A stretch of DNA of 64,000 nucleotides from Sabellastarte sp. h YS-2021. Lineage: Eukaryota > Annelida > Polychaeta > Sabellida > Sabellidae. The stretch lies in NCBI GenBank assembly GCA_964017235.1, contig OZ024931.1:100086221-100150220 (forward strand), in the 5' to 3' direction. The notes below the pieces were generated by a model that worked only from the letters and a program-made list of their open reading frames with translations, did not search any database and was not told the origin of the DNA. The number at the start of each line of letters is the position of its first letter. The stretch's first letter is position 1. This document shows, piece after piece, positions 9,147 to 63,461 of the stretch. The position numbers were made by a program, and so were the translations under genes.

Positions 9147-10489
9147 CTAGACCCTGGGCTTAGACTCCTTAAGACTTGGTTGTAGCGGATGTGCCCCCCC
9201 CCCCCCCTTCCTTTCTTTCCGAGGATGACTGGACTGAGGAGAAGGGTCTAGGACCTGTTGTGCCGCTACTACTGGTCCCAGATACAGATTGTTGTCATTG
9301 TCCGACCAAGTAAGGTCTTTTAGATAAAAATTGGTAAAAGTGTTGTGAGCTTTCCAGTGACAGGCTTGCATGATCTGGTCCACCGATACCCCACCGTAAA
9401 ACGCCTTAGAGGCTGCAAAGGCCCGAATGTCATGCGCCTTGACTTGGACTAAATCCAAGGCTTGCTGGTCTGCTTGTTTATAACAAAGTAGGATGGTTTG
9501 TTTCACCCAAGAAGAGAGAGTAGCGGGTCTGATGACTGATGTATGTCATTTCTTGAAGGAAATGAAAAGGAGGGACCGGGAACCTCTTAGGTCCTTGGTT
9601 CGGTCCAGATAGTACCTCAGGGCCCGCACCGGACACAGGGTCCTGTCTTCTTGAACTGTCTATCCACAATGGTAGTCAAAGCAGGAATAATCACCGGAGA
9701 CACACTTTGAGAACCTTCTCTTGCTAGTTGGTTTTTGGCTATGAAGTCAGAAGAAGGGAACAAGGAGACCTTTTCCCAGCGGCCTTGATTAGATACTTTG
9801 TTTGCAACCCAGGCATGGATTTCGCTGCGGCGCTTGCGGGAGGCCAAAGCTAGCAAGAAAGCAGTTTTGAGAGTGAGATGTTTGAGGTCTGTGTCTTTCA
9901 TAGGCTCAAAGGGTGCTTTTGTGAGCTCATTGAGAACAACAGAAAGGTTCCACTTGGGGAGACTTCTGGAGCTTTTGGGGCGATCCCTGTGGAAACTGGA
10001 GAGCAACCTATGAAGGTCGTCATTATGAGCAATATGTTGGCCCGATGCGCCCAAGGTGTCAACAATGGCAGTCCTGTAACCATCAATGGTGGAGGGGCGC
10101 CTGTTTAGGTCTTGGTACAGATACATGAAGAAATCTGAGATTTGTTTCACAGATGGAGTGGAGAAATCCACCGAATTTTCTCTGCACCATTTTTCAAATA
10201 GGGCCCACTTTGATTTGTAGATGGTCCTTGTTGATGACCGCTGAGGTGCAGCAATTCTCTCTACCACTTCCACAGAGAAGCCTTGTTCTTGGAGTTGTCC
10301 ACTCCTAGACACCAGGCGTGGAGGTTGAGGTGCTGCGGGTTGCTGTGGAACACATAGTTGTGGGACTGCTTGAGGAGTGTTGTCGACACCAGGAGCTGCA
10401 GTGGGATCTCTGTTGAGAGCTGCACTAGGTCCCAAAACCAGGGCATCCCTGGCCAGCCTGGGGCTATTAGTATGATCAGACAATTGCAT
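9147..10489 (-). pseudogene. tyrosine recombinase (DIRS B), frameshifted
   Basis: Homologue of the recombinase in A, very similar at nucleotide level. The first part (9617-10489) covers the N-terminal SAM-like domain and the first catalytic region (ASRKRRSEIHAW). A single-base loss near 9652 (TCTTCTTGAAC versus TCTTCTTTGAAC in A) throws it out of frame, and another change follows near 9545. The C-terminal part (9147-9506) keeps HDIRAFAA, CHWKAHN and FYLKDL. It cannot make a full-length enzyme. Confidence 0.85.
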
Positions 10490-10624
10490 TGCCTGATTTT
10501 TGGATCACCCTGTGAAGGAGAGCCGTTGGATTGTAAGCATAGGCAGTGAGACCCGTCCAGTTTATAGTTTAGAGCATCTATGTCCCAGGCCTTCGGGTCT
10601 GGGATAGGAGACACGTACAGTGGA

Positions 10625-10854
10625 TTTATTTATTTGGGGTTTTACGTCGCTTTCAACACTGTACAGGTCATATCACAACGGGTAGTTGGAAGGGCAGAGG
10701 AAACCAGTATATAGAGTTCGCTAGGGTTGTGTACTGTAAACTGCCAAACAACGGCAAGCAACTACCAGCTTTCCCACATAAGGCCTTGACGGGGATCGAA
10801 CCCCGGCCTCAGAGGTGGGAGGCGAGAGTGTTACCACTCTGCCACCGTGGCCCC
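10625..10854 (-). mobile_element. tRNA-derived SINE
   Basis: Second copy of the SINE at 8272, same orientation, with A box TGGCAGAGTGG, B box GGTTCGATCCC and the ACGTAAAACCCC tail running into AAATAAATAAA. A perfect 14-bp duplication ACACGTACAGTGGA flanks it (10611-10624 and 10855-10868). It interrupts the methyltransferase-like region of DIRS B. Confidence 0.9.
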
Positions 10855-10879
10855 ACACGTACAGTGGAAGTTTGTGGTT

Positions 10880-12365
10880 CAGATAAGTGGCGAATAGGTC
10901 CACGTGGGGAGTGAACCCCTTTGGCAGATCTGTTTGAACACCTGTGGATGTAGTGACCATTCGGTCAACTGTACCTGATTCGACCTGGAAAGTAGATCGG
11001 CCATCACATTCAGACACCCTTTGGAATGTGCCTGGCTTTCAATGTGATGTGAGAATGATGGCACCAGGTCATGATTCTCCACCGGAGTGCACACATCTCC
11101 GCTGAGTATGTTCCCCCTGTTTGTTTATGTAAGCCACCACAGTTGACTTGTCTGTAGCAACTAGCACAGTTTGGTCCTGACACTGGTCTTTGAAGCGTCT
11201 CAGGGCCAGAAAGGCAGCTTTTAATTCTAGGACGTTTATGTGAAGCCCTTTTTCCTGGGGAGACCACAGACCTTGTGTTGAACTTGGTTCTAAGTGAGCG
11301 CCCCAACCTTCGTTTGAGGCGTCTGTAAAGAGTTGGATACTGTGGTCTTTGGGATGAAGGTCTGAGCCTTTCATCACGTTTGCAGGATTCTGCCACCAAC
11401 CAGGTGTGCTGAGATGGCTTCTGTCCAAGGAAGGAGGCTGTCCAGTGGTTGAGGAAATCTCCAGTGCTCCTTGAGGTGAAACTGAAAGGGTCTCATGTGA
11501 AGTCGTCCCTCTGGGACCATTTTCTCCGTTGAGGCTAGCGACCCAATTAGAGACATCAAACATCTTGCAGTCAAAAACATGTTTGGACTTGAGGTGTAGG
11601 ATAAAATCCTGGAGTTTGAGCCAATTCTCATGAGTGGGTTTTACAAGGGCTGAATCCAGGTGGAACTCGTAACCCACGAACGAAAAACACCTGAGTGGGA
11701 TTCAGTTGATTTCATTGATTGATGATCCATCCCAAGGTCTGGGTTAGATCTACCACTGCCTGAGTGTTCACTAGGGCTTCCTCCCCCGACTGCGACCTGA
11801 TCAGCCAGTCGACCAGGTATTGGTGGAGTCTGAGACCTGGAGAGGGCCATGAGCTTCACCTCCTTTACGATCATGGTAAAGACCTGGGGTGCTGTGGCCA
11901 GTGTGAAAGGTAGGGAGGTGAACTGGAACACCTGAGACCTGTGGCAAAATCTAGGTATTTCTTTGAGTGAGGATGGATGGGGATGTGAAGGTAGGCGTCC
12001 GATAGATCTATCGACGATACCCATTCCCCTGGAATCAGGGAGGTCCTGACGAACTCTGGAGTTTCCATCTAGAATTTTTCTACATGTAGAAAAGTGTTGA
12101 GCCTGCTTAAGTCTATAACTGGCCTCCACCTTTGGTGAGGCTTGGGTATTAGAAACAGGCGACTGTAAAACCCGAGAGATTTTACATTTTCCACCCTTTC
12201 GATAACGTTCTTTGACAGTAGAGACTGGATGCAATGGGCCAAGGCTTGGTCCTTTGGGAGGGCCTTGTATTCTGATATTATCAGAAAAAACTGACCAAGT
12301 TGGGCTTTGAGAGGAATGGCAGTACGTAGCCATTGGTGATAAGGTTTAATACGTTGGATGAACAA
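10880..12365 (-). pseudogene. RT-RNase H-MT remnant (DIRS B)
   Basis: Broken polyprotein of element B. RT pieces at 12069-12365 (LIPKPHQRWRPVIDLSRLNT) and 11871-12068 (IDLSDAYLHIPIHP, the first catalytic Asp region) lie in different frames, and the palm continues out of frame to about 11510. RNase H (11069-11677) keeps FTDASNEGWGAH, NVLELKA and VATDKSTVVAYIN. Downstream MT-like sequence (DLFATYLNHKLP) is cut by the SINE at 10625. Unlike A, this copy retains the RT palm region, which shows that A suffered the deletion. Confidence 0.82.
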
Positions 12366-14170: not shown

Positions 14171-14288
14171 TTTAATGCAATAAAACAAACGCGAGTAGAC
14201 CTCGAGTCAACAACTCGCAGAAGAAAAGCCAGTCGAGGCGAGTTCATAAAACTTAAAATAAGGACAATTTAAGCAGAAGTGCTGAAAA

Positions 14289-14502
14289 TTGCAAATTTAA
14301 TAGTAAATTAAATTTTTATAAGTTAATACCCTATCCAATGGACAATAGCTTATCCGGTCGGCGCAGACCGGCCCGCCAAACGTCAGAAAAAGACGTCCTG
14401 TGTCTCCACTGGCCAGGCCGGTCCAGTGCTGTGCACTCGCCAGGTGGCGTGTAGTACTTCCTTCCTGTCTAGACAGCGTGACGTCATAGCATCTTTTTCA
14501 TT
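14289..14502 (+). repeat. DIRS C left inverted terminal repeat
   Basis: Inverted copy of the right end from about 14330 inward (CCAATGGACAATAGC, ATCCGGTCGGCGCAGACCGG, GTGACGTCATAGC). The outermost bases hold a 9-bp-arm hairpin AAATTTAAT-AGTAA-ATTAAATTT at 14293-14315. A perfect CRE-like palindrome TGACGTCA is at 14479-14486. Confidence 0.88.
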
Positions 14503-14564
14503 GTCTAAACCATTAGACCCCTAGTAAACTGATAGCGGGGTCGGTGGGAGGGTCTTGTGTGTCC

Positions 14565-14650
14565 ATTGGATAGGGTATTAACTTATAAAAATTTAATTTA
14601 CTATTAAATTTGCAATTTTATTGCGTTAATACATCCTATGCTATGGACAA
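14565..14650 (+). other. DIRS C internal complementary region
   Basis: Reverse complement of the left outer end (CCATTGGATAGGGTATTAAC...) followed by reverse complement of the right outer end (TTTTATTGCGTTAATACATCC), joined as AAATTTGCAATTTTATTGCG. The junction contains the dyad GCAAT-TTT-ATTGC. Confidence 0.9.
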
Positions 14651-14975
14651 TAGCTGAATAACTACCGCTTGGAACGCTAAGAAGTTACTAGGGACTTAAC
14701 TGAACTCATAAATAAACTAACAACTTTTCAGGCCTGGGTCGACTCTGAGGTCAGGAAACCCTTAAGGCTATAGTCGGTCAACAGATACCGGTTAACCGGT
14801 CTCACCGACTTACCCCCCCCCCCCCTTTTGAACAGACCTGCTCTGAGGTAGGGGAAGAGAGGGCTGAGTTCAGTCCCCTGAGAAGGAATAAACACCCCGA
14901 AGGAAGCACGTCTGAGTTTGTTTGTTTTTTGTTTACTTAACTGTATATACACTATTCACATATTACAAATCTCCT

Positions 14976-16090
14976 CTAGGTTCTAGGTTGTTGGTGGATC
15001 TGCTGAGCAGCCACTACAGGACCTAGGTGGAAGAGCTCTGAATCAGCCCAGGCCACATCCTTCAGATAAAACTGCATGAAGGTATCATGTGATTTCCAGT
15101 GGCAAGCTGATAAAATCTGCTCCAGGGAAACTCCCGACTGGAAGGCCTTAGAAGCAGCAAAGGCCCTGACATCATGAGCTTTAACTTGATGCAGGGTGTG
15201 GGCTTGATGATCGGAGAGCTCATAGCACAGGATCACAGTCTGTTTGATCCATGAGGAGATGGTGGCAGGGGAGATGTCTTTGTCGAAGCCCTTCTTGAAG
15301 GAGACAAAGACTAGTTCCTTGTGCTGCCGGAGGTCTGAAGTCCTGTCCAAATAGTAGCGCAAGGCTCTGACTGGACAAAGGGATCTGTCAGCCTTGAGGG
15401 ACTTATCCAGAGTAGGAGCCAGGGCTGGTATGACCACTGGGGCTACACTCTCTGGACCCTCTTTGGCCAGCTGATTCTTGGAAAGAAAGCTGGGAGATGG
15501 AAACAGGGATACCTTAGACCAATCGGCTTGGTGTCTGATGTTCCTGTTTTGCCATGCATGGATCTCACTCCTTCTTTTACCAGAGCCCAGGGCCAAAAGG
15601 AAGACAGTTTTGAAGGTCAGATGCTTCAGTGATGCCTCCCTAAGAGGTTCGAAAGGAGCCTTTGTCAGCTGGTGTAGTACCAGGGAAAGGTTCCAGGAGG
15701 GTATTCCCCTCCGCCCTTTGGGTCTATCTCTGTGGAAACTTTCGAAGAGACGAGTGAGATTATCATCTTTGCTAACATTGACTGTTGTATTACCTAGTTT
15801 ATCAGCAATGGCAGACCTGTATCCATCAATGGTGCTGGGCTGTAACTTCCTGTCCTCAAAGAGGTACAATAGGAAGTCAGCCACCGACTTTATAGGTGGT
15901 GACCTGAAGTCCACCTGATTAGTGATGCACCACTTTGTAAAAATGGTCCACTTTGTCTCATAGACCGATCTAGTCGATTTTCTTTGAGGAGCCTGAATTC
16001 TTGCTGCCACTGCCTCAGAGAAGCCCTGTTCCTTGATTTTTGTGGCTCCAGGAGCCAGGCATGGAGGTTTAGATTTGTCAGATTTCTGTG
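14976..16090 (-). CDS. tyrosine recombinase (DIRS C)
   Basis: Tyrosine recombinase, at the C-terminal end of a very long open frame that has no stop from the gag UGA (18194) to 14976. Recombinase homology with A begins near residues EQGFSEAVAARIQAPQRKS, hence the start given here; the real N-terminus is unknown. Active-site signatures: GKRRSEIHAW, KAHDVRAFAASKAF, ACHWKSHD and QFYLKDVAW, all complete. The N-terminal part overlaps the end of the RT-RNase H-MT frame by about 200 bp. It is in the same frame as gag and the Cys-rich extension, so it might be reached by stop-codon readthrough, or be translated separately. Confidence 0.85.
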
Positions 16091-18094
16091 AGGGATCTGA
16101 TTGAAGGGCTGTGTCAGCAAATTGGGCAGGTTGGGCAGGTAGAGAGGGACCTGACTGGACATTGTCACCAGGTCCCAAAACCAAGGCATGTTGGGCCACC
16201 CCGGGGCAATCAAGATGAGTCTCTTGCACGGGGAGTCCAGAAGCTTCTCCACTACTTTGCCCAATATGGCGGTCGGTGGGAAGGTGTATGCATCCAGATC
16301 CCCCCATGGCAGAGTAAGTGCATCCACTGCAATAGCCAGGGAGTCCGGTACTGGAGAGACAAACTGAGGTAACTTGTGGTTGAACCTCGTGGCAAACAGA
16401 TCCACTTGAGGCCGGTGCCATTGGTTGCAGATCTGTTGGAAAATCTCCGGGAGGAGGGACCACTCTGTTTGAATGGTCTGACCCAGCCTGGATAGCTTGT
16501 CGGCTATCACATTCAAACGGCCAGGGATGTGTCAGGCTTTTAGAGTTACTTGTCGCTGGGAACACCAGGTCAAGGTTCTCCACAGTAGGGCACAAAGCGG
16601 GCCCGACCTCATGCCTCCTTCCTTGTTTATGTAAGCTACCACTGTAGTATTGTCGGTTGCTATTAGAACTAGCTTGTCTACGCAGAGATTTTGGAACTCT
16701 TTTAAGGCTAGAAACACAGCCTTGAGTTCCAGATAGTTTATGTGCAGCTTGCTTTCCGGCACCGACCAGGACCCTCTTGCAGTGAATTCGTTTACGTGAG
16801 CACCCCACCCTTCTTTTGATACGTCTGTAAAAATTTGCAGAGCATGTCTTACTGGGTGTAATGGTTGACCTTGAAGCACATTGTCTTCGTCTAGCCACCA
16901 TTGTAAGTGAGGATGTAGGGCCCTTGGTAGAGGGATAATCTTCTCTAGAGATTCTGGTACCCTCCAGTTGTTTTTGAGATGCCACTGTATGGGTCTCATG
17001 TGTAGTCGGCCGAGGTGAACCTGTTTTTCTGTGGCTGTTAGCAGACCTATCAGGGACATGAACTGCCGGACCGGACAGGCCGGTAGCAGCAAGAGTGCAT
17101 GTATCTTGTCCTGAAGGCTTTTCCACCGGCCCGGAATCGGTCTGACCCGGCCGGACCTGAGGTCGAACTGGTAACCTACGAAGTCGAAGACCTGTTTGGG
17201 TTCCAGTTCTGATTTCTCTAAATTTACCAGCCAACCTAAGTTCTGGCACATCGTCACCAGGATTTGGGTATGTCGGAGACAAATTTGCTGGGATCTGGCT
17301 CTCACCAACCAGTCGTCTAGGTATTGGTGGATCCTTATACCCCTTTGTATGGCCATCAGTTTCACTTCCTTTGCTAACACAGTGAAATCCATGGGCGCTG
17401 TGGACAGACCAAAGGGCAGTGCCCTGAACTGATAAGTCCGGCCCTGGACATGAAATCTTAGATATTTCCTGGATTGTTCCTGTATTGGTATGTGGAAGTA
17501 GCCGTCCTTGAAATCTACTGAGGTAACCCATTCTCCTTGTTGGAGGGATGTTCGGATGGTTTCCGGTGTCTCCATTTTGAATTTCTCCACCTTGAGGAAA
17601 AGATTTAGGTTGCTTAGGTCCAGTATTGGCCGCCATTTGTTGTTGGGTTTGGGGACTAGAAATAGTCGGTTGAAAAACCTTGGAGAGTTTTGATTTCGAA
17701 CCCTTTCCACTGCTTTGTCTATAAGCTGATGTAATGCCTCCAGCAGGTAGCTGTTCCTGTGGGGATTGACATAACGGCTTATGACTGAAGGAGACCGTGT
17801 GAGTTGGGGCCGGATCCGAAAGGAAAGGGTGTAACCCTCTTTCAGGATTTGAACTATTTTCGGACCGGCCCCCAGATCCAGCCAAGTTTTCCAAAAGTTT
17901 TGTAGTCTGGCCCCTACAGGTTGATCGTTTACAACATTTTGGACAGTTTTTACAGGTTGGACACAAGACAATTGAGTGACACAAGAAACAGGTTTCACAT
18001 ATTTTAATTTGTGACACACCTTTGATTGACACTCTGCCCACCCGGGACTTAACTCTCTCTTTTGGGAGTGCCCGGGTGCAGAAGGTACATCCAT
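15890..18094 (-). pseudogene. RT-RNase H-MT (DIRS C), one nonsense codon
   Basis: Polyprotein in the +1 frame relative to gag. The start at 18094 is the first ATG of this frame after the gag stop (MDVPSAPGHSQ). RT: LVPKPNNKWRPILDLSNL, SVDFKDGYFHIPI (first Asp), FRALPFGLSTAP and HQYLDDWLVRA (YLDD). RNase H: FTDVSKEGWGAH, NYLELKAVFLAL, IATDNTTVVAYINKEGG. The MT-like domain follows: LNVIADKLSRLGQT, QVDLFATRFNHKLP, YTFPPTAIL, LIAPGWPNMPWFWDL. A single TGA at 16532-16534 replaces the Arg codon of the RHIPG motif (CGA in D), separating RT-RNase H from MT. Otherwise it is intact. FKDGY has Gly where E and D have Ala. Confidence 0.9.
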
Positions 18095-18191
18095 TACAAC
18101 ATGATAATTTACAGAGTCTAATGTCTTTTCTTGTGCTAGAGTCTTGCTCCCGGCCAGCAGTCCCTCCTGTAAACTGTTTACAAAGTAATTG
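17904..18191 (-). CDS. Cys-rich gag extension after UGA (DIRS C)
   Basis: In-frame continuation of gag after its UGA stop, about 95 codons, with no further stop. It contains two Cys clusters: CKLSCCNGCTFCTRA, then KERVKSR, then ICETCFLCHSIVLC followed by CPTC..CPKCC..STCRGQT. In total 14 Cys and one His are arranged as CxxC-like pairs, suggesting zinc binding. The Cys positions are identical in elements D and E although intervening residues differ, which argues that this frame is translated. I do not recognise the domain. It overlaps the N-terminal part of the RT frame, so the DNA is read in two frames here. Confidence 0.7.
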
Positions 18192-18194
18192 TCA
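18186..18194 (-). promoter_or_regulatory. leaky stop context UGA-CAA-UUA (DIRS C)
   Basis: Gag ends with codons Tyr-Lys-UGA followed by CAA UUA. A stop followed by CAR YYA is the established tobamovirus-type readthrough context. The same arrangement is present at 38665-38673 (UGA CAA UUA) and 61250-61258 (UGA CAA UCA). Function is inferred, not shown. Confidence 0.65.
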
Positions 18195-20270
18195 TTTATA
18201 GGACTGCTGGCCCTTGGCTGGTCGCGAGGAGTAGTAAGAGGCCTTGCCCTTATTCTTCTTGCCCTGACCCTTGTTGCCAATGTTCTTCCATGCAGGACGG
18301 TCTGGTTTCCTGTAGTCCGAACGCTTTTCTGGTCGTTCGTATGGATGGAAGCGACCTTTCTTTCCTGACTGGCCTTGGTTTTTACTCTCAAAATTTGCAA
18401 TGTCTTGCTCGGCCTGTTTCAATGCGGCATCTGGGAACAGGGTTGAGATATGGAGAGGCCCAGTCCGTAAGGCACCCAGGGTGTCCGGCTTTATACCCAT
18501 CTTAAGATGAGAGAGGTAGGCATCTCTTCTGATGAGTGTCGTATTGGCAACCGTAACAAACACAAAATCCGATAAATGTTCAAGGGTTTTTGCCATGGAC
18601 TGTGTTATGCTAGAATTAAAGTTCATGAGAAACTGTAATTCGTCAGCAGCATGAGAAAGTTTCCCTGAGGATTTCCCTTTGGTCAGTTCTGCTTTGATAG
18701 CTTTGAGTTCGGACTGCATGTTGTCCTGTACCCTGTATAGACATCGGTTGAAGCCAGCCGCTTGGTTGCAAATAATAGAGGCTTCGCGGGCTGACTTCTC
18801 CCACTTGCGTAAATTGTCCTGGGAAATCTGGCGTGAAGCAGGTGGGGTTGATGCAATGCCAGCTGCCTTCGCGATGCGACTATAAGAGCTATTAACTTTG
18901 GATGCGTCAGTGCTCCAAGTCTGTACGGTTTTCCCAGTTTCCTGATCACTCTTCTGTATTGTAGGTACAAAGTTATACCACTTGGCCTGGAACTTTGGGG
19001 GTCGGACGAACTGGTCCTTGAGGAGACCTCCAGCCTCCGAACTACGCGATGGGTATCCCTCTGTAAGTGTGAGGTTGAGCTTCCCCATCTTGTTGCATAG
19101 CCACTCATCCGTGGGCATGGTGACCGAAACCTTTCCTGTGGGCTGGGCTTTAGGGCCAGCAAATGGGTTATCTTCCGACTTGGAAGCTGCAGTGTCAATC
19201 TCTGGGATGTGGTTCCACCCCATAAACGATCTGATCCCACTCATCGTTTCTCTGTAATTCTGTTCCTCTGAGAGGGTCAGATCTGGGTCGTTAACAGAGG
19301 CTTCGCGATCTTGGTCAGAGAGCTCTCCCTCTTCAACAAAAATGTCCACAGGCGGACGGTCAGACAGGTCGGAGTCGGTATCCATGGAAGATACACTGGT
19401 TTTCCTTGCCGGTGCTGAAGATGCTCTGCTGGGTACCTGTTGTGACAAGGGAGAGTCGGTACCAGCCACATCTGGATGCCGGTCGGTAGGCACCTTTGCT
19501 CTTGACGATTTGCTGGTCGACTTGGATACAGTCTGACAAACACCAGGCAAATCTGAAGATAGCTGAGGGGCAGCTGAAGTCTGTGGTTGGTCGGTATCCG
19601 GTCTCTGAGAGACGAGGTCGGTGGCCGACAACTCCGTATCTTGAGGTTTGATGAAAGGTTTGGACGAGATAGCCGAACCTGAAGGAGGTGAGTGTGCTGG
19701 GGTGACTTTCACTGTAGTAAAGGTCGGTTCTCTATCCAAGGACTTGGCTAACAAAAGCGCCTCTAGTCTGTTAAACCGATCAGACCATTTCTGGTCTAAC
19801 TCATCGATCCTTGTGTCCGGTGAGAATCTGTGAGTCTTGGAAAGCGACTTAGAGGGTTTGTCAGAAGCCAGTTTGGAATCTTTTGAAGAATGAGTCTTAG
19901 TCTTTTCAGAAGGATTAGGTTTCTTCTTCTTTTCAGAACTAGCACCCGGGGACTGCAAAATCCCCTGGTCGTCCACAGCTCCCACTACCGTCACAGAGGA
20001 TGGGTCTATGAGAGAGGAACTGGTAGAGTCCTCTTTTGGAGTATCCGCAGATTTTTTAAGATCTCTTTTTACCTTCTTTAATCTGTAAGACGGAGTGGAC
20101 AACTGTAAACGTTGTTCCTCAGACAAAATGTTACAAGAGTTACAGTCCTTCTTGGCAACGCACGGATCTGACCCCTTACCCTTTTCTCTGCAACGTGTGC
20201 AGAAACAATGGCTGTCGAAGCTAGCCATGATGTGGCCACAACTTCCATGCTTCTGTGAAGGGGAAGACAT
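18192..20270 (-). CDS. gag protein (DIRS C)
   Basis: Capsid-like protein of 692 residues. The start at 20270 (MSSPSQKHG) is chosen because D and E share MSSPGQ. Residues 10-50 hold a Cys/His cluster (CGHIMASFDSHCFCTRCREKG, DPCVAKKDCNSC) of a kind I recall from fish DIRS gag proteins. Residues ~60-330 are Ser/Pro/Lys/Asp-rich and probably disordered, with a conserved DELDQKWSDRFNRLEALLL segment likely helical. Residues ~340-640 form the conserved core (YRETMSGIRSFMGW, NPFAGPKAQPTGKVSV, TEGYPSRSSEAGGLL, QISQDNLRKWEKSAREASI). The C-terminus is Lys/Gly/Ser-rich. It ends at a UGA that may be leaky. Confidence 0.88.
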   Translation of the reverse strand: MSSPSQKHGSCGHIMASFDSHCFCTRCREKGKGSDPCVAKKDCNSCNILSEEQRLQLSTPSYRLKKVKRDLKKSADTPKEDSTSSSLIDPSSVTVVGAVDDQGILQSPGASSEKKKKPNPSEKTKTHSSKDSKLASDKPSKSLSKTHRFSPDTRIDELDQKWSDRFNRLEALLLAKSLDREPTFTTVKVTPAHSPPSGSAISSKPFIKPQDTELSATDLVSQRPDTDQPQTSAAPQLSSDLPGVCQTVSKSTSKSSRAKVPTDRHPDVAGTDSPLSQQVPSRASSAPARKTSVSSMDTDSDLSDRPPVDIFVEEGELSDQDREASVNDPDLTLSEEQNYRETMSGIRSFMGWNHIPEIDTAASKSEDNPFAGPKAQPTGKVSVTMPTDEWLCNKMGKLNLTLTEGYPSRSSEAGGLLKDQFVRPPKFQAKWYNFVPTIQKSDQETGKTVQTWSTDASKVNSSYSRIAKAAGIASTPPASRQISQDNLRKWEKSAREASIICNQAAGFNRCLYRVQDNMQSELKAIKAELTKGKSSGKLSHAADELQFLMNFNSSITQSMAKTLEHLSDFVFVTVANTTLIRRDAYLSHLKMGIKPDTLGALRTGPLHISTLFPDAALKQAEQDIANFESKNQGQSGKKGRFHPYERPEKRSDYRKPDRPAWKNIGNKGQGKKNKGKASYYSSRPAKGQQSYK

Positions 20271-20416
20271 GACGATCCGTAACCAAAAACAAGTCAAAAT
20301 GATCTATACACACTCTTGAACACAATAATTAAAAAAGAAAGCACACTCTGAAGAATAACTTTAATAAATCCCAAAATATATTTCACTCAGAAAATTCGTG
20401 TACACAACACATACGC

Positions 20417-20610
20417 CAAACGAAAAAGAAGCTATGACGTCACGCTGTCTAGACAGGAAGGAAGTACTACAGACCACCTGGCGAGTGCACAGCACTGGAC
20501 CGGCCTGGCCGGTGGAGACACAGGACGTCTTTTTCTGACGTTTGGCGGGCCGATCTGCGCCGACCGGATAAGCTATTGTCCATTGGATAGGATGTATTAA
20601 CGCAATAAAA
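20417..20610 (+). repeat. DIRS C right inverted terminal repeat
   Basis: Reverse complement of the left repeat, with TGACGTCA at 20435-20442, GTCTAGACAGGAAGGAAGTA, a CCGGCCTGGCCGG palindrome and the end sequence ACGCAATAAAA. It lies immediately upstream of gag and is the likely promoter end. Confidence 0.88.
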
Positions 20611-37633: not shown

Positions 37634-38606
37634 CAAACTGGTAGCCTACAAAGTTTTAGATTTGTTTGGGCTCCAGTTCTGATTTTTCCAAATTCACCAA
37701 CCAGCCTAGATCCTGGCATATTTTGACAAGCATTTGGGTATGTCGGATACAGGTTTGGAGGGATTTGGCTCTCACCAACCAGTCGTCTAGGTACTGGTGG
37801 ATTCTTATACCCCTGTGTATGGCCATTAGTTTTACCTCCTTTGCTACTACAGTGAACTCCATGGGCGCTGTGGACAGACCAAAAGGCAGAGCTTTGAACT
37901 GGTAGGTCCGGTCCTGGACCTGAAATCTGAGGTATTTCCTGGACTGTTCCTGTATCGGTATATGGAAATAAGCATCCTTGAAGTCTACCGATGTAACCCA
38001 TTCCCCTTGTAGAAGGGAGGTTCTGATGGTTTCCGGTGTTTCCATCTTGAATTTCTCCACTTTGAGGAATTGGTTCAGATTGTTGAGGTCTAATATCAGT
38101 CTCCATTTGTTGTTGGGTTTGGGGACTAAAAAGAGTCGGTTGTAAAACCCCAACGAGGTCTGATTGGACACCGGTTCTACAGCATTTTTGTCGATAAGCT
38201 GATGCAATGCCTATAACAGGTAGCTGTTCCTGAGAGGATTGCCATAGCAGCTTATGACTGTAGGAATTCTTGTAAGTTTTGGTCGGATCCGAAAGGGGAG
38301 GGTGTAGCCCTCTTGCAGGATTTGAACCACTTTCGGACCAGCACCCAGGTCCAGCCAGGTTTGCCAAAAATTTTGCAGTCTGGCCCCTACAGGCAGAGTG
38401 AGGGCAACATTTGGTACATTTGAAACAGAATTGACACAAGACAATTGAGTGACACAAGAAGCACCTTTCACAGATTTTAATTGACACTTTTTTAATTGAC
38501 ATTCTGGCACTCCGGGACTTATCCCTTTCCTTTGTGGAAGCCCGGGTGCAGAAGGAACAAATTTGACAACAAGAGGCTTTACATCTAAATTTAACAGATT
38601 GTTCAT
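37634..38606 (-). pseudogene. reverse transcriptase (DIRS D)
   Basis: N-terminal and catalytic RT region in the +1 frame relative to gag. It opens with an ATG at 38606 and contains GARLQNFWQTWLDLGAGPK, LVPKPNNKWRLILDLNNL, SVDFKDAYFHIPI, KALPFGLSTAPMEF and HQYLDDWLVRA. Nonsense codons lie near 38208-38210 (Glu to TAG in a RNSYLLEALHQL-type segment) and near 37653 (in the KQIFDFVGY motif). Otherwise it is open and continuous with the 37562 frame. Confidence 0.88.
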
Positions 38607-38670
38607 TGTCTCGTTCGTGTGAAAGTTCCGGGTCAGCAGCCGACTTGTATCCCTGTTTAAACAATAATTG
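38377..38670 (-). CDS. Cys-rich gag extension after UGA (DIRS D)
   Basis: In-frame continuation of gag after UGA (38671-38673), followed by CAA UUA. About 98 codons without a stop up to CRGQT. It has CKASCCQICSFCTRA, then KERDKSR, then ICERCFLCHSIVLC and further CxxC pairs ending in SACRGQT. All Cys positions match elements C and E even though this copy's gag and RT have decayed. Confidence 0.68.
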
Positions 38671-40809
38671 TCATTTATAATGTTGCTGACCGCGGGAATG
38701 TCGGGAAGAGAAGTTGGAGGCTTTGCCCCTGCCTCGCTTGAAAGGACGCCTGTTGATATTACTCCAGGCGGGTCTGTCCTGTTTTACCTCTGACCGACTC
38801 TCCTGCTTTTTATCCGCCCGTTCATACGGGTGATAACGGTGTCTGGCATGTGATGTGGTAGCCGTGGGATGACTCTTGTTATCATAAAGGGCAATTTCTT
38901 CCTCGACCTTCTTAACAACCGATTCTGAGAACAAGGTGGCTATATGGAGTGGGCCGGTCCTGAGGGCAGCAAAGGTGTCTGGTTTCACTCCATTCTTTAA
39001 GTGGCTGAGGTATGAGTCTCGACGGGCCAAGGCAAGGTTTCCCATAGTGATGAAAACAAAGTCTGTCAAATGTTACATTGCCTTGGCCGTCGCTTGTGTG
39101 ATGCTTGAGTTAAATTCCATAAGGAATTGCAATTCCTCAGCGGCTTCGGACAGTTTCTTGGAGACTTTACCCTTGTTTTCCAACCTGATAACTTTTAGTT
39201 GTGTCTGCATGTCCCCTTGCACTTTAAACAAGCAGCGGTTGAAACTGGCCGTCTGGTTGCACACTACTGAGGCCTCTCTGGCCGTCCTCTCCCAATGCCT
39301 AAGCGTATCTTGTGAGATCCTACGGGAAGCTGGAGGTGTAGCTGCCAAGGCGGCTTTCCTGGCTTTTCTCCCGAAGCTGTTGTTTAGCTTGGCAGGGCCT
39401 GTATGCCAACTGGTGACTGTGGCCAGATCCAATTGCTGGTCAGAATAAAGACCGTACCATTTTGTTTGTGGTTTCGGAGGTCTGAGGAAATGGTCGATAG
39501 GAAGGCTACCGGCTTCAGTGGTTCTGGAGGGGTATCCCTCAGTCATATTGAGGTTGAGCTTAGATAATTTTCGGCAGAGCCAGTCCTCTGTAGGCATTTG
39601 TACTGAGATCTTGCTGGGTGCCGGAGCCTTGGGGCCCGCGAAAGGGTTGTCGTCAGAAGGGTTTGAACTGTCCATATCGGGAACATGCGACCACCCCATA
39701 AAGGAGCGTATGCCTCTCATGGTTTCCCAGTAGGTTTGTTCTTCTGACGTCGGGAGTTCTTGGTTAAATTCTTGATCGTCGGACAAATCTCCCTCCTCTA
39801 CGAAAAGTTCCACTGGGGGAGTGTCGGAGAGCTGACTCTGGGTATCCGAGTCCAAACTAGAGATACTGTCTTTCCTGCCCTTCTGAGGGGTCGGTGAAAA
39901 AGAGCCGGTTGAACTATAAGGTCAGTCGGAGGGAGGGTGGTCGGATGCCTCAGCAGAAAGAGTTGATGGTCGGTGAGAGTCGGTACTAGGCTTACCGGTC
40001 GACTTTTGCTTCTGAGAAGCGGTGTCTGGACCAGTGCGCCCCTGTGTAGAAATGTTTGGTTTAGCCTTCAGCTTACCGGCCGACTTTTGCTGTGAAGCAA
40101 TATTGTCTAGGCCAGTGCGCTTAACAGTTGAAGATCCCTGCTAGGCAGGGTCTGTGGTTAGCTTACCGGCCGACAGCTGCAAGGCAGCACTAGAGTCTGG
40201 GCCAGTGCGCTGAGAAGTATTCAGAGGTTTATCAGATGGTTGAAAAAAGGGTTCAGAGTCTCGTGTAACATTTCCTGGAGGAGGATGATCTGGAGCGACC
40301 CTGACATCTGAAGAGAAAGTAGGTTCTATGGATCTGGCTAAGAGTAAGGCTTCTAGCCTGTTGAAGCGATCCGCCTATTTGTCCTCTAGGGCTGAAAACT
40401 TGTCTTCCGTGGCAGAAGAGAGAGCAGAAGATGATTTCTTTGATTTAATAGGGGGCTTGTCCTTTTTAGGTTTCTTTTCAGGAGGGGCAGGTGATTTATC
40501 CGCACTAGGCCCACTCACAACCCCAATAACGGAGACCCTGGAAGGGTCTACAAGTTCGTCCGTGGGTTGGGTATTATCCACACGTTTTGCCTCCCTTTTC
40601 TCCTTCTTGATTTTGTACGATGGAGTAGAGATCTGGGCACGCTGCTCAGGGGTGAATGAATTACACAGAGTACAGTCTGCAGTGTCTTTATTAGCAATAC
40701 ACGGTTCCTCACCTTTCCCCTTTTCCCTACAACGTGCGCAGAAGGTATGTCCGTCGAAAATAGCCATTGCATGGCCACAACTCCCTCTCTTCTGGCCAGG
40801 TGATGACAT
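38671..40809 (-). pseudogene. gag remnant (DIRS D)
   Basis: Family-2 gag with start MSSPGQKRG at 40809 and the N-terminal cluster CGHAMAIFDGHTFCARCREKG. Breaks: TGG to TAG in the QKWSDRFN equivalent near 40374, at least one stop in the low-complexity centre (for example near 40140), and GAA to TAA near 39070 in the AMEHLTDF motif. The pieces 40375-40809, 39073-39855 and 38671-39069 are all in one frame, so decay is mainly by substitution. It ends GQQHYK then UGA. Confidence 0.85.
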
Positions 40810-45120: not shown

Positions 45121-46795
45121 AACAAGAGGAGAGTGCCCGTGAACGGGCACTGTGTCAGCTGACTGAGTGTTTTTGATTTGTGAAGGTGATTAGAGGACAG
45201 AATAATTATCAGGAAAAGGGCTGTACAGAAATACAGTAAATGGTAACTGAACAGCAAGTTCGAAAGAAATTCCGAAGCTGACAGAAGAAAAGGATAAAAA
45301 AGTTGTGCCCTGTAAATGGTATTATGAAGGAAAATAACAAGGTAATTGTTTAAGTGTAAAAAATAGGTTAAAACATATTTAAAGAAATACTACAAATGCA
45401 ATATCCTCGTTCGACCTTGAAGAAGGGGTCCAAGGTCAAATCTAACCACACAAATACATTCCCAGCCCATGATTTCCTATGGTTTACCATTCCAAACCTC
45501 TAGGACCAATTATAAATGAGTTATAAGCACTTTTAAGCTTGGCTGTCCTCATTTGACCTTGAAGGAGGGGTCCAAAGGTCAAATCTGACCATACCAAAAG
45601 ATTCCGAGCCAATGATTTCCTATGGGATGGTAAACTCTGTCACCAATAATAAGCGAGTTGTAGGCACTTTCAATTTTCGCTATCCTCATTTGACCTTGAA
45701 GGAGGGTTCCAAGGTCAAATCAGACCATATCAACAGATTCACAGCCCATGATTTCCTGTCTGTTTACCATCCCAAACCTCTGGTACCAATAATAAGCGAG
45801 TTATAAACACTTTTAAGTTTGGCTATCCTTGTTTGACCTTGAAGGAGGGGTCATTGAAGGTCAAATCTGACCACACCAAAAGATTCCCACCCCATGATTT
45901 CCTACAGGTTGGTTCATCATCCCAAACCTCTAGGATCAATAATAAGGGAGATATAGGCACTTTTCATGACTGACAAAAAACACCTGTGGCAGCCATCTTG
46001 TTTCTCAAAATGAGACCAAAAATATTCCCAGACAACATTTTATGGTTATTAATATATACTGCAAACTTAAGAAAGCTAGCTATAATATTTTTTTTCATCA
46101 GAGCAGTAATGGTGAAATCTCTCTCTACACACTGCGGCTATCCAGTGGATACAATGATTTACTCAACAGTGAGAACCTGAAAGTAGCTATTGCTCAGCTA
46201 TGCCATGACATAGAGGTCTGCAATTTCACTATGTTATAGCTGACCAAAAATTATGTGAATAACATATTTAACAAATTACTCTAAATGTAATAGTTTTCAA
46301 GTTACAACTGATTTACTCAACAGTAAGAACCTCAAAGGAACTATTACTCAGCTATGCAATGAGCTACATGTCTGAAATTTTACTATGTTACAGCTAACCC
46401 AAAAGTAGGTGAACAACATATTTAAGCAAACTACTGTAAATGCAATAGTTTTCAAGCTACAACTGATTTACTCAATAGTGAGAACCTGAAAATAGCTATT
46501 GCTCCGCTATGCCATGAGCTATAGGTCTGTAATTTCACTATGTTATAGCTGACCCAAAAGTAGGTGAACAATATATTTTAACAAAATACTCCAAATGCAA
46601 TATTTTTCAAGTTATACCTGATTTACTCAACAGTCAGTACCTGAGAATAGCTATTGCTCAGTTGTTCCATGAGCTATAGGTCTATAATTTCACTATGTTA
46701 TAGCTGACCCAAAAGTAGCTGAATAACATATTTGCACAAATTTCTGTAAATGCAATAGTTTTCCAATTATAACTGATTTACTCAACAGTGAGAAG
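45121..46795. mobile_element. hairpin-ended tandem-core element, truncated
   Basis: Starts AACAAGAGG with the same hairpin as 24275 (AGTGCCCGT at 45132-45140, ACGGGCACT at 45143-45151) and GTCAGCTGAC, then ~146-bp repeats (45400-45970) and 155-bp satellite units (46150-46795). The far terminal domain is missing. It lies in a host intron. Confidence 0.65.
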
Positions 46796-55997: not shown

Positions 55998-57443
55998 AAT
56001 TGCTTGGTTGCAAATGATGGAAGCTTCGCGGGCTGACTTCTCCCACCTTCTCAAATTGTCCTGGGAGATCTGGCGTGAAGCCGGTGGGGTTGATGCAATG
56101 CCGGCTGCCTTTGCTATGCGGCTGTAGGTGCTATTAACCTTGGATGCATCCGTACTCCAACTGTTCACAGTCTTGCCCATCTCCTGTTCACCTTTCTGTG
56201 GGTTCGGTACAAAACTATACCATTTTGACTTGGGGGGTCGGACGAATTGGTCTTTAAGCAGACCTCCAGCCTCTGAGCTGTGCGACGGGTACCCCTCTGT
56301 AAGAGTGAGATTGAGTTTGCCCATCTTGCTACACAGCCACTCATCCGTGGGCATTGTGACTGAAACCTTTCCTGTTGGCTGGGCCTTTGGACCTGCGAAA
56401 GGGTTATCTTCCAGCTTGGAGGTTGCTGTATCAATCTCTGGGATGTGACTCCACCCCATGAATGACCTGATCCCACTCATCGTTTCCCTATAGTTCTGTT
56501 CCTCTGAGAGGGTCAGATCAGGGTCGTTAGCAGAAGCCTCCAGATCCTGGTCAGACAGTTCCCCTTCTTCAAAAAAAATGTCCACTGGGGGATGATCAGA
56601 AAGGTCGGTGTCGGTGTCCATTGAAGATGTACTGATTCGTCTTGCAGGAGCCGATGACGACCTGCTGGGTACCTGCTGTGATAAGGGAGAGTCAGTACCA
56701 GCTAGATCTGACTGTCGGTCGGTAGACACCTTTCCTTTGGACGATTTGCTGGTCGACTTGGAAGCAGTCTGAGCATTACCAGGAAAATCTGAAGATTGTT
56801 GAGCCGTGTCCGGTCCCAGTCATTGGTCGGTAGCCTGTTTCTGAGAAGTGAGAAGAGAAGGTCTAATGAAGGGTTTCGCAGAGATAACCGAACCAGGAGG
56901 AGGAGAGTGTGCTGGTGTCACTTTCACAGTGGTAAATGCTGGTTCCGGTTTATCCAATGACTTAGCTAGCAGAAGGGCCTCTAGTCTGTTAAAGCGTTAC
57001 ACCCATTTCTGGTCCAACTCGTCAATCCTAGAATCAGGGGAGGATCTGTGAGATTTAGAAGCAAGCAACTTAGAGGCCTTATCTGTACCAGTCTTCGGAT
57101 CTTTGGAAGAATGTGCTTTGGCTTTCTCAGAAGGGTTGGCCTTCTTTTTCTTTCCTTTTTTCTTTTCCTGGACTGCAAAATCCCCTGGTCGTCTACAGCT
57201 CCCACTACCGTCACAGAAGACGCGTCAATGAGAGAGGAACTGGAGGAGTCCTGTTTGAGTGTATCACTGGTTTTCTTAAGATCATGTTTCTCTTTTTTTG
57301 AGCCTATAAGAAGGCGTGGACAACTGCAAACGTTGGTCCTCAGTTAATATATTGCAAGTTACAATCATTATGGGAGACACAGGGATCTGAGCCCTTACCC
57401 TTCTCTCTGCAATGTGCGCAGAAACTATGGCTGTCAAAGCTCC
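55998..57443 (-). pseudogene. DIRS family-2 gag fragment F
   Basis: Part of a gag close to that of C: from FDSHSFC-like sequence at 57440 through the Ser/Pro-rich centre to SAREASIICNQA at about 56000. Stretches such as YRETMSGIRSFMGW and NPFAGPKAQPTGKVSV are identical to C. It lacks the first ~17 residues, the C-terminal third and all other DIRS parts. One edge abuts the LINE 5' truncation point, the other abuts the left end of element E. It has frameshifts near 57160-57290 and a stop near 56820. Confidence 0.88.
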
Positions 57444-57637
57444 TGTTAATACCCTATCCAATGGACAATAGCTTATCCGGTCGGCGCAGACCGTCGGTCC
57501 CTAGTACTAGTGCACTCGCCAGGTGGCGTGTCGTACTTCCTTCCTGTCTAGACAGAGTGACGTCATGGCATCTTTTTCGTTGTCTAAACCTATTAGACCC
57601 CTAGTAGACAGATAGCGGAGTCGGTGGGAGGGTCTTG

Positions 57638-59110: not shown

Positions 59111-61191
59111 AACCCTGTTTCTTGATGCTGAGGCTCTAGGAGCCATGCGTGGAGATTTAGATTTGTCAGATTTCTGTGAGGGATCTGATTGAAAGGCTGT
59201 GTTAACAGGTTGGGTAGGTTGGGCAGACTCAATGGGATCTGGCTGGACATGGCCACTAGGTCCCAAAACCAAGGCATGTTGGGCCATCCCGGGGCAATGA
59301 GAATGAACCTCGTGTAAAGGGTGTCCCGTAGTTTCTCTACTACCTTGCCCAGAATGGCTGTCGGAGGGAAGGCGAATGCGTCCATATCCTCCCATGGTAG
59401 ACTGAGTGCATCTACTGCCGCGACGTGGGGATCCGGTATTGGAGACAACTTGTTGTTGAACCTCGTAGCAAACAGGTCTATCTGTGGCCGGTGCCATCTG
59501 TTGCAGATCGCTTGGAAAACTTCTGGGAGAAGGGACCATTCGGTTTGAATGGTCTGGCCCAGCCTGGATAACTTGTCTGCTACTACATTCAGCCTGCCTG
59601 GGATGTGTCGTGCCCTGAGGGTCACCTGCCTCTTGGTGCACCAGGTTATAATTCCCCAGAGTAGAGCACAGAGGAGGCCTGACCTCATACCCCCTTCTTT
59701 GTTTATGTAAGACACTACTGTAGTGTTGTCAGTTGCTACTAGAACAATCTTGCCGGCACAGAGGTCTTGAAACTGCTTCAAGGCTAGAAAAACTGCCTTT
59801 AGCTCTAGGTAGTTTATGTGCATGTTGGTTTCTGGCAGAGACCAGTACCCTCTGGCGATGTGCTCGTCTAAGTGAGCGCCCCACCCTTCTTTTGATGCGT
59901 CTGTAAAGATTTGCAGAGCATATTTTATTGGGTGTAATGGTTGGCCTTTGAGAACATTTTCTTCGTCTAACGACCAACGTAAGTGGGGATGAAGAGACCT
60001 GGGGATTGGAATAATCTTTTCCAGAGACTCTGGCACCCGCCAGTTGTCTTTGAGGTGCCACTGTATGGGCCTCATATGAAGTCGGCCTAGGTGAACTTTC
60101 TTCTCTGTGGCTGTTAGTAAACCTATCAGGGACATAAACTGCCGGACCGGGCAGGTGGGGAGTGACAGCATCTCTAATATTTTCTCCTGAAGGTTCTGCC
60201 AACGGTCCTGTGTCGGTCGGACCCGGCCGGTCTTGAGGTCGAACCGGTAGCCTACAAAATCGAAGATCTGCTTGGGCTCCAGTTCCGACTTTTCCCAATT
60301 CACCAGCCAACCAAGTTTTTGGCATAATGCGACAAGGTCCTGAGTAAGTTGGAGACAAGCCTGGTGGGATCTGGCTCTCACCAACCAGTCGTCTAGGTAT
60401 TGGTGGATCCTTATACCTTGGTGCATGGCCATCAGCTTCACCTCCTTTACTACCACAGTGAACTCCAGGGGTGTCGTGGACAGGCCAAAAGGTAGAGCCT
60501 TGAATTGGTATGTCCGGCCCTCCACATGGAATCTCAGATATTTCCTGGATTGTTCCTGTATTGGTATATGGAAGTAGGCGTCTTTGAAGTCTATTGAGGT
60601 GACCCACTCCCCTTGTTGGAGGGATATCCTGATGGTTTCTGGTGTCTCCATTTTGAATCTTTCTGCCTTGAGAAAAGGGTTTAGCTTGCTCAGGTCTAAA
60701 ATGGGTCTCCACTTGTTGTTGGGTTTTGGGACCAGAAATAACCCTAACGATGTTTGGTTGTGGACCAGCTCTACGGCGTTTTTGTCCATAAGCTGATGTA
60801 ATGCCTCTAACAGGTAGCTGTTCCTGTGAGGATTGACATAACAGCTTACTACTGAGGGAGACCTTGTGAGATGTGGCCGGATCCGGAAGGGGAGGGTGTA
60901 ACCCTCTTTCAAAATTTGAACCACCTTCGGACCCGCACCTAGTTCCAGCCAAGTTTGCCAAAAAGTTTGAAGTCTGGCCCCTACAGGCAGATTTGGAACA
61001 ACATTTGGGGCACATGTTACATGATTGACATAAGACAATTGAGTGACACAAGAAACACTGTTCACATATTTTAATTCTTGCTTTATGTAATGACAATCTG
61101 CTGTCCCGGGACTTACTCCTTTCTTTTGGGAATGCCCGGGAGCAGAAGTGGCAAGGTTGACAACATTTAAGTTTACATTCAAAAAGTTCAA
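59083..61191 (-). CDS. RT-RNase H-MT polyprotein (DIRS E), open
   Basis: The longest intact polymerase frame of the window (702 codons); there is no obvious ATG before the RT fingers, as the frame opens at a TTG. RT: RWRPILDL-type motif (NNKWRPILDLSKL), TSIDFKDAYFHIPI, KALPFGLSTTPLEF and HQYLDDWLVRA. RNase H: FTDASKEGWGAH, NYLELKAVFLAL, VATDNTTVVSYINKEGG. MT-like: RHIPGRLNVVADKLSRLGQ, QIDLFATRFNNKL, FAFPPTAIL, LIAPGWPNMPWFWDL. The (D/N)PP(Y/F) methyltransferase motif appears as FPPT, so catalysis by that domain is doubtful. It lies in the +1 frame relative to the gag/Cys-rich frame. The absence of an early ATG suggests expression by recoding. Confidence 0.9.
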   Translation of the reverse strand: MNFLNVNLNVVNLATSAPGHSQKKGVSPGTADCHYIKQELKYVNSVSCVTQLSYVNHVTCAPNVVPNLPVGARLQTFWQTWLELGAGPKVVQILKEGYTLPFRIRPHLTRSPSVVSCYVNPHRNSYLLEALHQLMDKNAVELVHNQTSLGLFLVPKPNNKWRPILDLSKLNPFLKAERFKMETPETIRISLQQGEWVTSIDFKDAYFHIPIQEQSRKYLRFHVEGRTYQFKALPFGLSTTPLEFTVVVKEVKLMAMHQGIRIHQYLDDWLVRARSHQACLQLTQDLVALCQKLGWLVNWEKSELEPKQIFDFVGYRFDLKTGRVRPTQDRWQNLQEKILEMLSLPTCPVRQFMSLIGLLTATEKKVHLGRLHMRPIQWHLKDNWRVPESLEKIIPIPRSLHPHLRWSLDEENVLKGQPLHPIKYALQIFTDASKEGWGAHLDEHIARGYWSLPETNMHINYLELKAVFLALKQFQDLCAGKIVLVATDNTTVVSYINKEGGMRSGLLCALLWGIITWCTKRQVTLRARHIPGRLNVVADKLSRLGQTIQTEWSLLPEVFQAICNRWHRPQIDLFATRFNNKLSPIPDPHVAAVDALSLPWEDMDAFAFPPTAILGKVVEKLRDTLYTRFILIAPGWPNMPWFWDLVAMSSQIPLSLPNLPNLLTQPFNQIPHRNLTNLNLHAWLLEPQHQETGFLSGSGSKN

Positions 61192-61255
61192 AGTCTGTTC
61201 TTGTGTGTTGCTCCCGGCAAGCAGTCTCCCTTGATACTGGGTTAAACAGTGATTG
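60971..61255 (-). CDS. Cys-rich gag extension after UGA (DIRS E)
   Basis: Continuation after UGA (61256-61258) and CAA UCA, open through CRGQT. It carries CKLKCCQPCHFCSRA, then KERSKSR, then ICEQCFLCHSIVLC and CQSC..CPKCC..SACRGQT. The Cys pattern is identical to C and D. Confidence 0.68.
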
Positions 61256-63461
61256 TCATTTACATGACTGCTGGCCCTTGGCGCCGCAGGAGGAAAAGTT
61301 AGCAGAGCGTCCTCTGCCTCTCTTAAACTGCTGTCATCCTATGTTTTTCCAAGCCGGCCTTTCCTGCTTGCCCTCCGACCGACTCTCAGGTTTCTTCGTA
61401 TCAGGTCTTTCATAAGGATGGTAACGAGCTTTACCCCGGCCAAAGGTAGCAGACTGGCCCTTGCTATCATAATGAGAAATTTCCTCTTCCGCCCTCTTGA
61501 TAATAGAATCGGGAAAAAGAGTTCCAATCTGTAGTGGGCGGTTCTGAGGGCAGCAAAGGTGTCCGGTTTTATCCCATTCTTGAGGTGGCTAAGGTAAGCG
61601 TCACGCCGGGCCAGAGTGGAGTTACCCATAGTGATGAAAATAAAGTCTGTCAGGTGCTCCATAGCCTTGGCGGCAGCCTGAGTGATGCTACTGTTAAAGG
61701 TCATGAGGAACTGCAGTTTATCAGAAGCTTCGGACATCTTTTTGGAACCTTTGCCTTTAGACTCACCACGGATAGTCTTAAGTTGTGACTGCATTTCTTG
61801 CTAGACCTTGAAAAGGCAGCGATTGAAACTAGCCGCTTGATTGCAAATCACAGAGGCCTCTCTTGCACTCTTCTCCCACTTTTGCGTAATGTATCCTGTG
61901 AGAGGCGGTGTGAAGCTGGGGGAATGGATGTCATACCAGTCTTTCTAGAAATTCTACCAAAATGGCTGTTAAGCTTTGATGGTCCAGTATTCCAACTTGA
62001 AACTGTAGAGGAATCACTTGCTTGTCCGGGATAAAGCCCGTACCATTTACTCTGTGATCTGGGTGGTCTTAGGAATTGGTCCATAGAAAGGTGACCAGCT
62101 TCAGCCGTCCTTGACGGGTATCCTTCTATGAGGGTTAAATTCAGTTTTCCCATTTTCTTACAAAGCCACTCTTCAGTGGGCATTTGCACCGACACCTTGT
62201 TCGGAACAGGGGCTTTAGGACACGCAAAGGGGTTATCATCCGACGGGTTAGAGCTGTCCAAGTCAGGCACGTGGGTCCATCCCATGAAAGAGCGGATACC
62301 ACTCATAGTTTCTCTGTACGTTTGTTCCTCGGAATTAGGTTGTTCAGATTCCCCAAAGTCCTGATCCTCTGAAAATTTGCCTTCCTCAACAAAGAGCTGG
62401 ACCGGAGGTCGGTCGGAAATGTCACTTTCTGCCTGAGAACCTACACTTGAAAAGCTGTCTCGTCCATCAGAATGTTGAAGAGGAGGCAATTCCGAACCAG
62501 CAAGCAAAGATGAGCCTGGTCGGTCGGTACGAGGTCGGTCGGAGAGCAGGTTGCTAGTAGACTGAAGCTTGGAACTGGCATGGTCGGAGTCTGAAGGTAA
62601 ACTATCCCCTTGGTGTCGGTCGGATGAAGGCTGACCGGTCGACAGAGGCTTTTCAGCAGTGTCTGGACCGGTGCGCCCTGATGATGATGGTTTGGGTCGG
62701 TGGGAGTCCGACTTTAGCTTACCGGCCGACTTATGCTGCAAGGCATGTGTGTCTGGGCCAGTGCGCTCTAAATCTGTCTTTCTTTGACCAGTCTTGTTTA
62801 TCTTTGGCTTACCGGCCGACAACTGCAAGGCAGTATGAGTGTCTGGGCCAGTGCGCCTATCTGGTGAAGATTCCCTAGGTCGTTGGGATGGTTGAAAAAA
62901 TGGTTCTGAGTCCTTACTTATACCAGCAGGTGGAGAGTGTGTGGGGGATACCCGGACCTCTGAAGTAAAAGCTGGATTAAGAGATTTTGCCAACAGAAGA
63001 GCTTCAATCCTGTTGAAGCGCTCGGACCACTTCTGGTCTAATTCAGAGATCTTGCTATCAGCAGTTGAGGTATCCACAGACTTCTTGGATTTTGACGGAA
63101 CCTTTTCTTTCTTTGGTTTCTTTTCTGGGGGAGCTGAGTCGATCTGAGAGGCACTTGAATCACCCACAACCCCAATAACTGCTACAGTAGCAGGGTCCAC
63201 AAGGGTATCGTCCGCAGGGGGATTAGAGTCAGTGCGTTTTGCCTCCCGCTTTTCTTTTTTAATCTTGTATGACGGAGTAGCAAGCTGAGCTCGTTGCTCA
63301 GGGGTGAGGGCATTACATAACTTACAATCTGTAGTCTCTTTATTAGTCACACACAGTTCCTCCCCTTTTCCTTTATCGCGACAGTGTGCACAAAATGCAT
63401 GTCCGTCGAAACTGGCCATAGCGTGGCCGCAACTTCCCCTTCTTTGTCCTGGTGAAGACAT
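61256..63461 (-). pseudogene. gag remnant (DIRS E)
   Basis: Family-2 gag with start MSSPGQRRG at 63461 and the cluster CGHAMASFDGHAFCAHCRDKG. It is open to about 61848 (core YRETMSGIRSFMGW, NPFACPKAPVPNKVSV, RLSQDTLRK), then frameshifts. CAG to TAG occurs near 61802 and another shift near 61540 (AALRT). The central region contains imperfect internal repeats of SAGKLK and RTGPDTHALQ type. It ends with GQQSCK then UGA. Confidence 0.87.

Follow-up and report, generated by a model that had tools for sequence, protein, structure and literature searches.

How does a DIRS-type retrotransposon express overlapping gag, reverse transcriptase (RT) and recombinase frames from one RNA? The element family described here, found in a 64,000-nucleotide stretch of the genome of the annelid Sabellastarte sp. 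(the window), addresses this question. In three of its copies, C, D and E, all read from the minus strand, gag ends in UGA (18192..18194, 38671..38673 and 61256..61258, respectively), and the next six letters are CAA UUA in C (18186..18191) and D (38665..38670) and CAA UCA in E (61250..61255). Letters and positions are those of the original prediction, which had read all three sites as UGA-CAR-YYA: the minus strand is TGACAATTA at 18186-18194 and again at 38665-38673, and TGACAATCA at 61250-61258. Throughout the window, only 16 of 6853 stop trinucleotides precede CARYYA (0.23%; both strands, any frame, the three real sites included), and on such counts CARYYA at gag stops is more than chance. 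We consider it probable (about 0.72), from sequence evidence, that the gag stop of this DIRS-type family is programmed to be leaky and gives a fusion of Gag, a Cys-rich module and the recombinase.

Architecture of the elements

Copy C spans inverted repeats from 20591 to 14330. Self-comparison places the arms, unstranded, at 20419..20591 (5′ end) and 14330..14502 (3′ end); they are 173 nt long and 97% complementary, and an internal complementary region near the 3′ end (14285-14344 with 14560-14619) extends over 60 nt at 100% complementarity. The minus strand carries a gag frame of 703 codons from stop to stop (18195..20303), an RT/RNase H frame of 628 codons in gag +1 (16532..18418; RVT_1, E 2.8e-22) and a putative tyrosine recombinase (YR) domain (15063..15611; Pfam Phage_integrase, E 0.0011). 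The Phage_integrase match, at 19.3 bits, lies below the curated cut-off of 27.1, and the RNase H matches are weak and under the Pfam cut-off. R, HxxR and Y, which we take to be the tyrosine-recombinase residues, are visible by eye in the YR of copy C. No Pfam match to a methyltransferase domain was found in 15893-16531 of this copy.

The gag +1 frame holds RT in C, D and E, and also in copy A, a family 1 element of the same window whose RT core starts ~8 codons past its gag stop. Readthrough to a Gag-pol protein is ruled out by this frame relationship. Because the gag frame beyond the UGA leads to the YR and RT sits in +1, the product would be Gag-recombinase rather than Gag-pol. The in-frame gag extension that had been proposed thus exists, with the correction that it leads to the recombinase and not to RT/pol. 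It was predicted to be open in all three copies, and it runs for 1071 (C), 345 (D) and 508 (E) codons to the next stop. Copy A was said to lack it, and does, because its gag ends TGA CTC and the next stop follows 18 codons on.

Other repeats share the window. On the minus strand, 9252-12311 is another DIRS-like copy, now broken, in which similarity to RT and YR can be recognised, at about the distance of copy A from C, and 55851-57450 is a further partial gag without the stop region, 67% identical to gag of copy C (residues 56-563). A satellite of 155-nt tandem units occurs at 404-28000 and 46165-46621, also adjoining DIRS copies (34 matches of a 300-nt reference at at least 60% identity).

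Conservation of the gag stop across the genome

The genome of 1,785,957,881 bases was searched with DNA queries and with the extension proteins. Each extension search yielded 14,317 to 15,044 first-look candidates, 150 of them scored, which points to very many candidate copies in one genome. The comparison covers 101 places: three in the window, 61 at the 60 loci L009-L068, 20 at L069-L088, 14 at L089-L102 and three at L103-L105. In L009-L068 the stop places were found by alignment, with no use of the motif itself for locating them. One of these loci, L028, has two gag-end sites (2428 and 3601) 1.2 kb apart, a local duplication. Scans of viral contigs (one of these scans with a gag-frame query in place of the RT frame) and of genome contigs found no relatives.

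The alignment of many copies at the gag stop, suggested originally as a check, finds UGA in 98, CAR-YYA in 100 and both in 97 of the 101 places, which are interdependent in that family copies share descent and were picked from search lists, partly for long frames. The contrary outcome named beforehand, with most copies having sense codons, other stops or contexts that are not CAR, did not occur. UGA is replaced by UGG in L097, by UCA in L102 and by ATC in L096, where unrelated DNA is joined upstream of the stop; the only exception to CAR-YYA is CAATAA in L071. Between families the hexamer is CAATTA, CAATCA, CAGTTA or CAGTCA, that is, CA(A/G)T(T/C)A, so it varies at the degenerate letters only. 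The expectation that UUA and UCA both obey YYA holds between families, though this one kind of change alters the amino acid, and CAA/CAG likewise keeps CAR.

How unusual is this constancy? Across the 60 loci, from three families, the 9-mer has one change in 540 letters, the remainder of the stretch has 755 in 29,393, and 5 of 492 nine-column windows are as invariant as this level. Equally invariant windows in L009-L068 start at -27, -26 and -25 before the UGA, plus one at +256.

Most of the gag homologs listed end at the same place. Among 120 gag homologs listed, of 469 found, 104 have the C-terminus GQQxx(K/T), with K in 103. The other 16 include P0060 and P0079, in which tryptophan takes the place of the stop and the protein continues; the remainder are truncated or extended by other routes. 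P0026 (639 aa), in which gag is joined to the extension, also has tryptophan at the stop.

The P0025-like family includes L069 and 17 further places at 100% identity, and in 14 of these 18 near-identical places the post-stop frame is 1074 codons long. Such copies are, judging by their sequences, a sign of recent activity.

The frame after the stop

The post-UGA frame of copy C (14976..18191, minus strand; gag frame, 1071 codons plus stop) comprises a Cys-rich module, an overlap with RT and the YR. The module takes up the first 95 codons after the stop (17907..18191) and has its counterparts at 38380..38670 in D and 60974..61255 in E, both on the minus strand. An alignment of 12 module sequences (A3) has 30 invariant columns, 14 of which are cysteine, and the module is probably metal-binding. 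A profile search with the 12 sequences found no relative in the PDB, and a structure model of the module was discarded (mean pLDDT 49).

With the Cys-rich query, 37 homologous proteins were found, 14 of them 1037-1072 aa long, and the clusters of these 14 hold 609 member sequences (the lengths being those of representatives). One of the 14, P0009, crosses into the RT frame midway. Fused proteins of ~1770 aa are absent among the 37, the longest being 1072 aa in a search whose limits allowed the fusion length.

Is the frame beyond the module maintained? Over RT, the post-UGA frame (ORF2) has no stop in nine and one stop in two of 11 copies, taken from 40 rows and chosen for long frames; synonymous shuffles give means of 15-26 stops, and in each of the 11 copies none of 400 shuffles is as low. 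The kept motif and a downstream frame open far beyond chance thus support the stop-readthrough reading put forward in the original prediction. Within the overlap, the RT frame is by substitution pattern the conserved one: between C and D, over 149 codons, changes per RT codon position are 0.13, 0.09 and 0.33.

The Cys-rich stretch behaves differently from this pattern, with changes about even across codon positions and shared variants of 13/16/17 by position, a little third-position excess at most. Even changes fit either double use or weak constraint; on this evidence, single-frame protein constraint in the stretch is weak, cysteines excepted. Because codon-position changes are even, the coding case for the module rests on its cysteines and its open frame. 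Stops in the ORF2 frame arise from none of 46 shared variants versus 7 of 119 private variants. The RT frame over the Cys-rich stretch has no stops, and given shuffled means of 0.2-2.0 its openness there is weak evidence of translation. Openness over the last 75 gag codons is uninformative, the shuffled mean being 0.0 in 9 of 11 copies; in E and L015 it is 0.6 and 1.0, and each has one stop.

The most invariant stretch in a comparison of C, D, E and L050 is CCTGTAGGGGCCAGACT (17904..17920, minus strand). It marks the junction at which the Cys-rich part of the gag frame ends and the RT core begins, and may possibly be a second recoding site.

Could the UGA instead serve chiefly for a +1 frameshift into RT, with CAR-YYA kept for slow termination and the extension secondary? 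Such a shift would deliver ribosomes to the frame that RT occupies in C, D, E and A. In C, D and E no stop interrupts the RT frame where it passes the gag UGA, and from 25 codons before to 96 after the stop no RT-frame AUG is common to the families. However, a frameshift leaves the open ORF2 frame over RT and the invariant cysteines unexplained, and inspection by eye recognised no known slip sequence; we regard this explanation as very improbable.

Start codons and splice sites near the stop

A leaky stop is one way to reach the extension; fresh initiation is another. Under termination-reinitiation, the 40S subunit would be retained after the gag UGA and restart a few codons on, making free Cys-recombinase and no Gag fusion. 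The third post-UGA codon is an AUG in L089 and in L069-L080, which represent the young P0025-like family together with its relatives; in L103 and L104 the AUG comes as codon five. Because this AUG lies three or five codons after the UGA, reinitiation could occur in those elements, and because the early AUG is limited to some families, it is not the shared feature. At other loci the third codon is TTG, CTG, CTT, TTT, TTA, TTC or CAG, and in the C, D and P0010-like families together with E, 58 of 59 copies lack an in-frame AUG within 26 codons after the stop (the lone exception, L066, has one at codon 10). The start-codon count builds on the open-frame rows, 40 of 43; L031, L033 and L047 were left out because the pattern used to pick rows included the motif, which location by alignment finds in these three as well.

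A further AUG shares letters with the UGA (AUGA), as reinitiation might use, yet it opens the third frame, which closes after four codons in 35 of 40 rows. A conserved mini-ORF starting at this overlap is ruled out, the third frame reaching 12-19 codons in L028, L044, L046 and L048. Reinitiation, moreover, has no need of CAR-YYA, and overall we think it unlikely as the route to the recombinase.

Splicing that skips the UGA would likewise place the post-stop frame in an mRNA. There is a precedent in Drosophila copia, which, according to an extract of PMC2194720, makes separate gag and gag-pol RNAs by regulated splicing. Against this, no GT is common to C, D, E and L050 within 230 nt upstream of the UGA, and splicing would not maintain UGA and CAR-YYA. 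Of the explanations weighed here we hold it to be the least probable.

A hairpin encloses the stop

The UGA is enclosed by a hairpin of 11-12 bp with compensatory changes, a feature that, from alignment and folding, is new here. Positions -18 to -7 pair with +31 to +42, and UGA and CAR-YYA lie in the loop. In copy C the arms are at 18201..18212 (5′) and 18152..18163 (3′); the hairpins of D (38631..38691) and E (61216..61276), also on the minus strand, form 9 and 10 of the 12 pairs, with GGTC/GACC replacing GGCC/GGCC in D. The loop is shorter in L103, with both arms kept.

In a hand-chosen alignment of 22 rows, one or a few per family (A7), 92.0% of the cells are paired, versus 5.0 to 50.0% in slid controls. 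Cells changed on both sides number 11 (shuffle mean 2.4), a count that none of 500 shuffles reaches; the covariation score, too, exceeds all 500 shuffles (which ignore relatedness). These double changes fall in three pairs: C-G to U-A in five rows, U-A to C-G in one, and the variable innermost pair, which is U-A, C-G or G-C and is unpaired in 11 of 22 rows. Two other measures are unexceptional: 26 of 500 shuffles equal or exceed the count of doubly changed pairs, and 463 of 500 equal or exceed that of additional pair types. RNAalifold recovers 11 of the 12 pairs unaided, with a covariation term of only -0.09, and the folding z-scores of eight sequences are -2.5 to -6.9. An inner hairpin 3′ of the UGA (columns 31-36/40-45) was rejected, 59 of 500 shuffles reaching its paired fraction.

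Might the pairing follow from the encoded protein? Codon sets drawn at random among synonyms form 6.2 to 8.5 pairs on average, and those that attain the observed number make up less than 2.5% in 20 of 22 rows; in D (0.27) and L087 (0.16) the pairing is no more than coding gives. By this test, pairing is beyond protein coding alone in 20 of 22 rows. A covariance model, run on the window and 10 loci, picks up C, D and E within the window but misses A, and its weaker plus-strand matches are the same palindromic sites.

Proposed mechanism

We propose that most ribosomes halt at the gag UGA and release Gag, and that a minority would decode the UGA, with CAR-YYA next. These would continue in frame through the Cys-rich module, then through a poorly conserved linker that overlaps RT, and then into the recombinase. 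CAR-YYA is the likely driver of this readthrough, by analogy with known signals, and the hairpin, with UGA in its loop, probably tunes it. Once UGA is in the A site, the ribosome covers most of the hairpin's 5′ arm, and therefore the helix would not be closed during UGA decoding. Melted at that moment, it may slow the approaching ribosome or shut the site in the interval between one ribosome and the next.

If the recombinase is fused to Gag, the packing of the integration enzyme together with Gag would be explained. More tentatively, and at somewhat less than even odds, the stop-enclosing hairpin with CAR-YYA in its loop may be an undescribed recoding layout with up to three outcomes: Gag, a Gag-Cys-recombinase from readthrough, and a Gag-RT from a +1 shift at or near the stop. 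If such a switch exists, it would be the first recoding signal known from tyrosine-recombinase retrotransposons and would fix how much recombinase is made relative to Gag. The 61-nt element is compact enough to go directly into a reporter.

Comparison with known systems

So, does this family resemble elements and signals already described? The comparisons that follow draw on extracts of the cited papers. As in DIRS1-like elements, there are gag, RT/RNase H and YR frames, inverted terminal repeats and an internal complementary region, and long ORF overlap occurs in half of the 28 DIRS1-like elements described (Piednoel et al. 2011, PMC3266345). The extracts of that paper mention neither stop codons nor the route of YR expression. 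In the present family the YR frame continues the gag frame from the codon next to the UGA and starts with a Cys-rich module. Copy A, from this window, is similarly DIRS-like with RT in gag +1; it differs in having UGA CUC, no extension and no match to the hairpin model. A search of literature on readthrough, CARYYA and DIRS, with most subscription papers outside it, returned no report of readthrough for tyrosine-recombinase retrotransposons.

The likeness to type I (tobamovirus) signals lies in the CAR-YYA hexamer immediately after the stop (PMC3542737). Natural cases generally have UAG, whereas here the stop is UGA with an enclosing hairpin; the same source indicates that CARYYA can act on UGA. 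In an OPRL1 reporter, CARYYA gave ~15% readthrough, UGA being similar to UAG, and all six letters mattered (Loughran et al. 2014, PMC4132726).

Stops in frame between the genes of a retroelement are read through or bypassed in MLV, SIRE1 and Tca2 (PMC2194720), and RIRE2 is a candidate for the same arrangement (PMC2754532). The family described here shares with these an in-frame stop between two genes. They differ from it in being LTR elements or a retrovirus, with the stop between gag and pol or between pol and env. The gag UGA of Candida Tca2, with a possible 3′ pseudoknot, gave no readthrough in a yeast reporter (PMC2194720), which by analogy counts against a leaky stop here. In MLV the structure is 3′ of the stop, whereas in these DIRS-type elements the hairpin encloses it, and a layout of this kind, with the stop inside a hairpin, would be new among the readthrough signals known so far.
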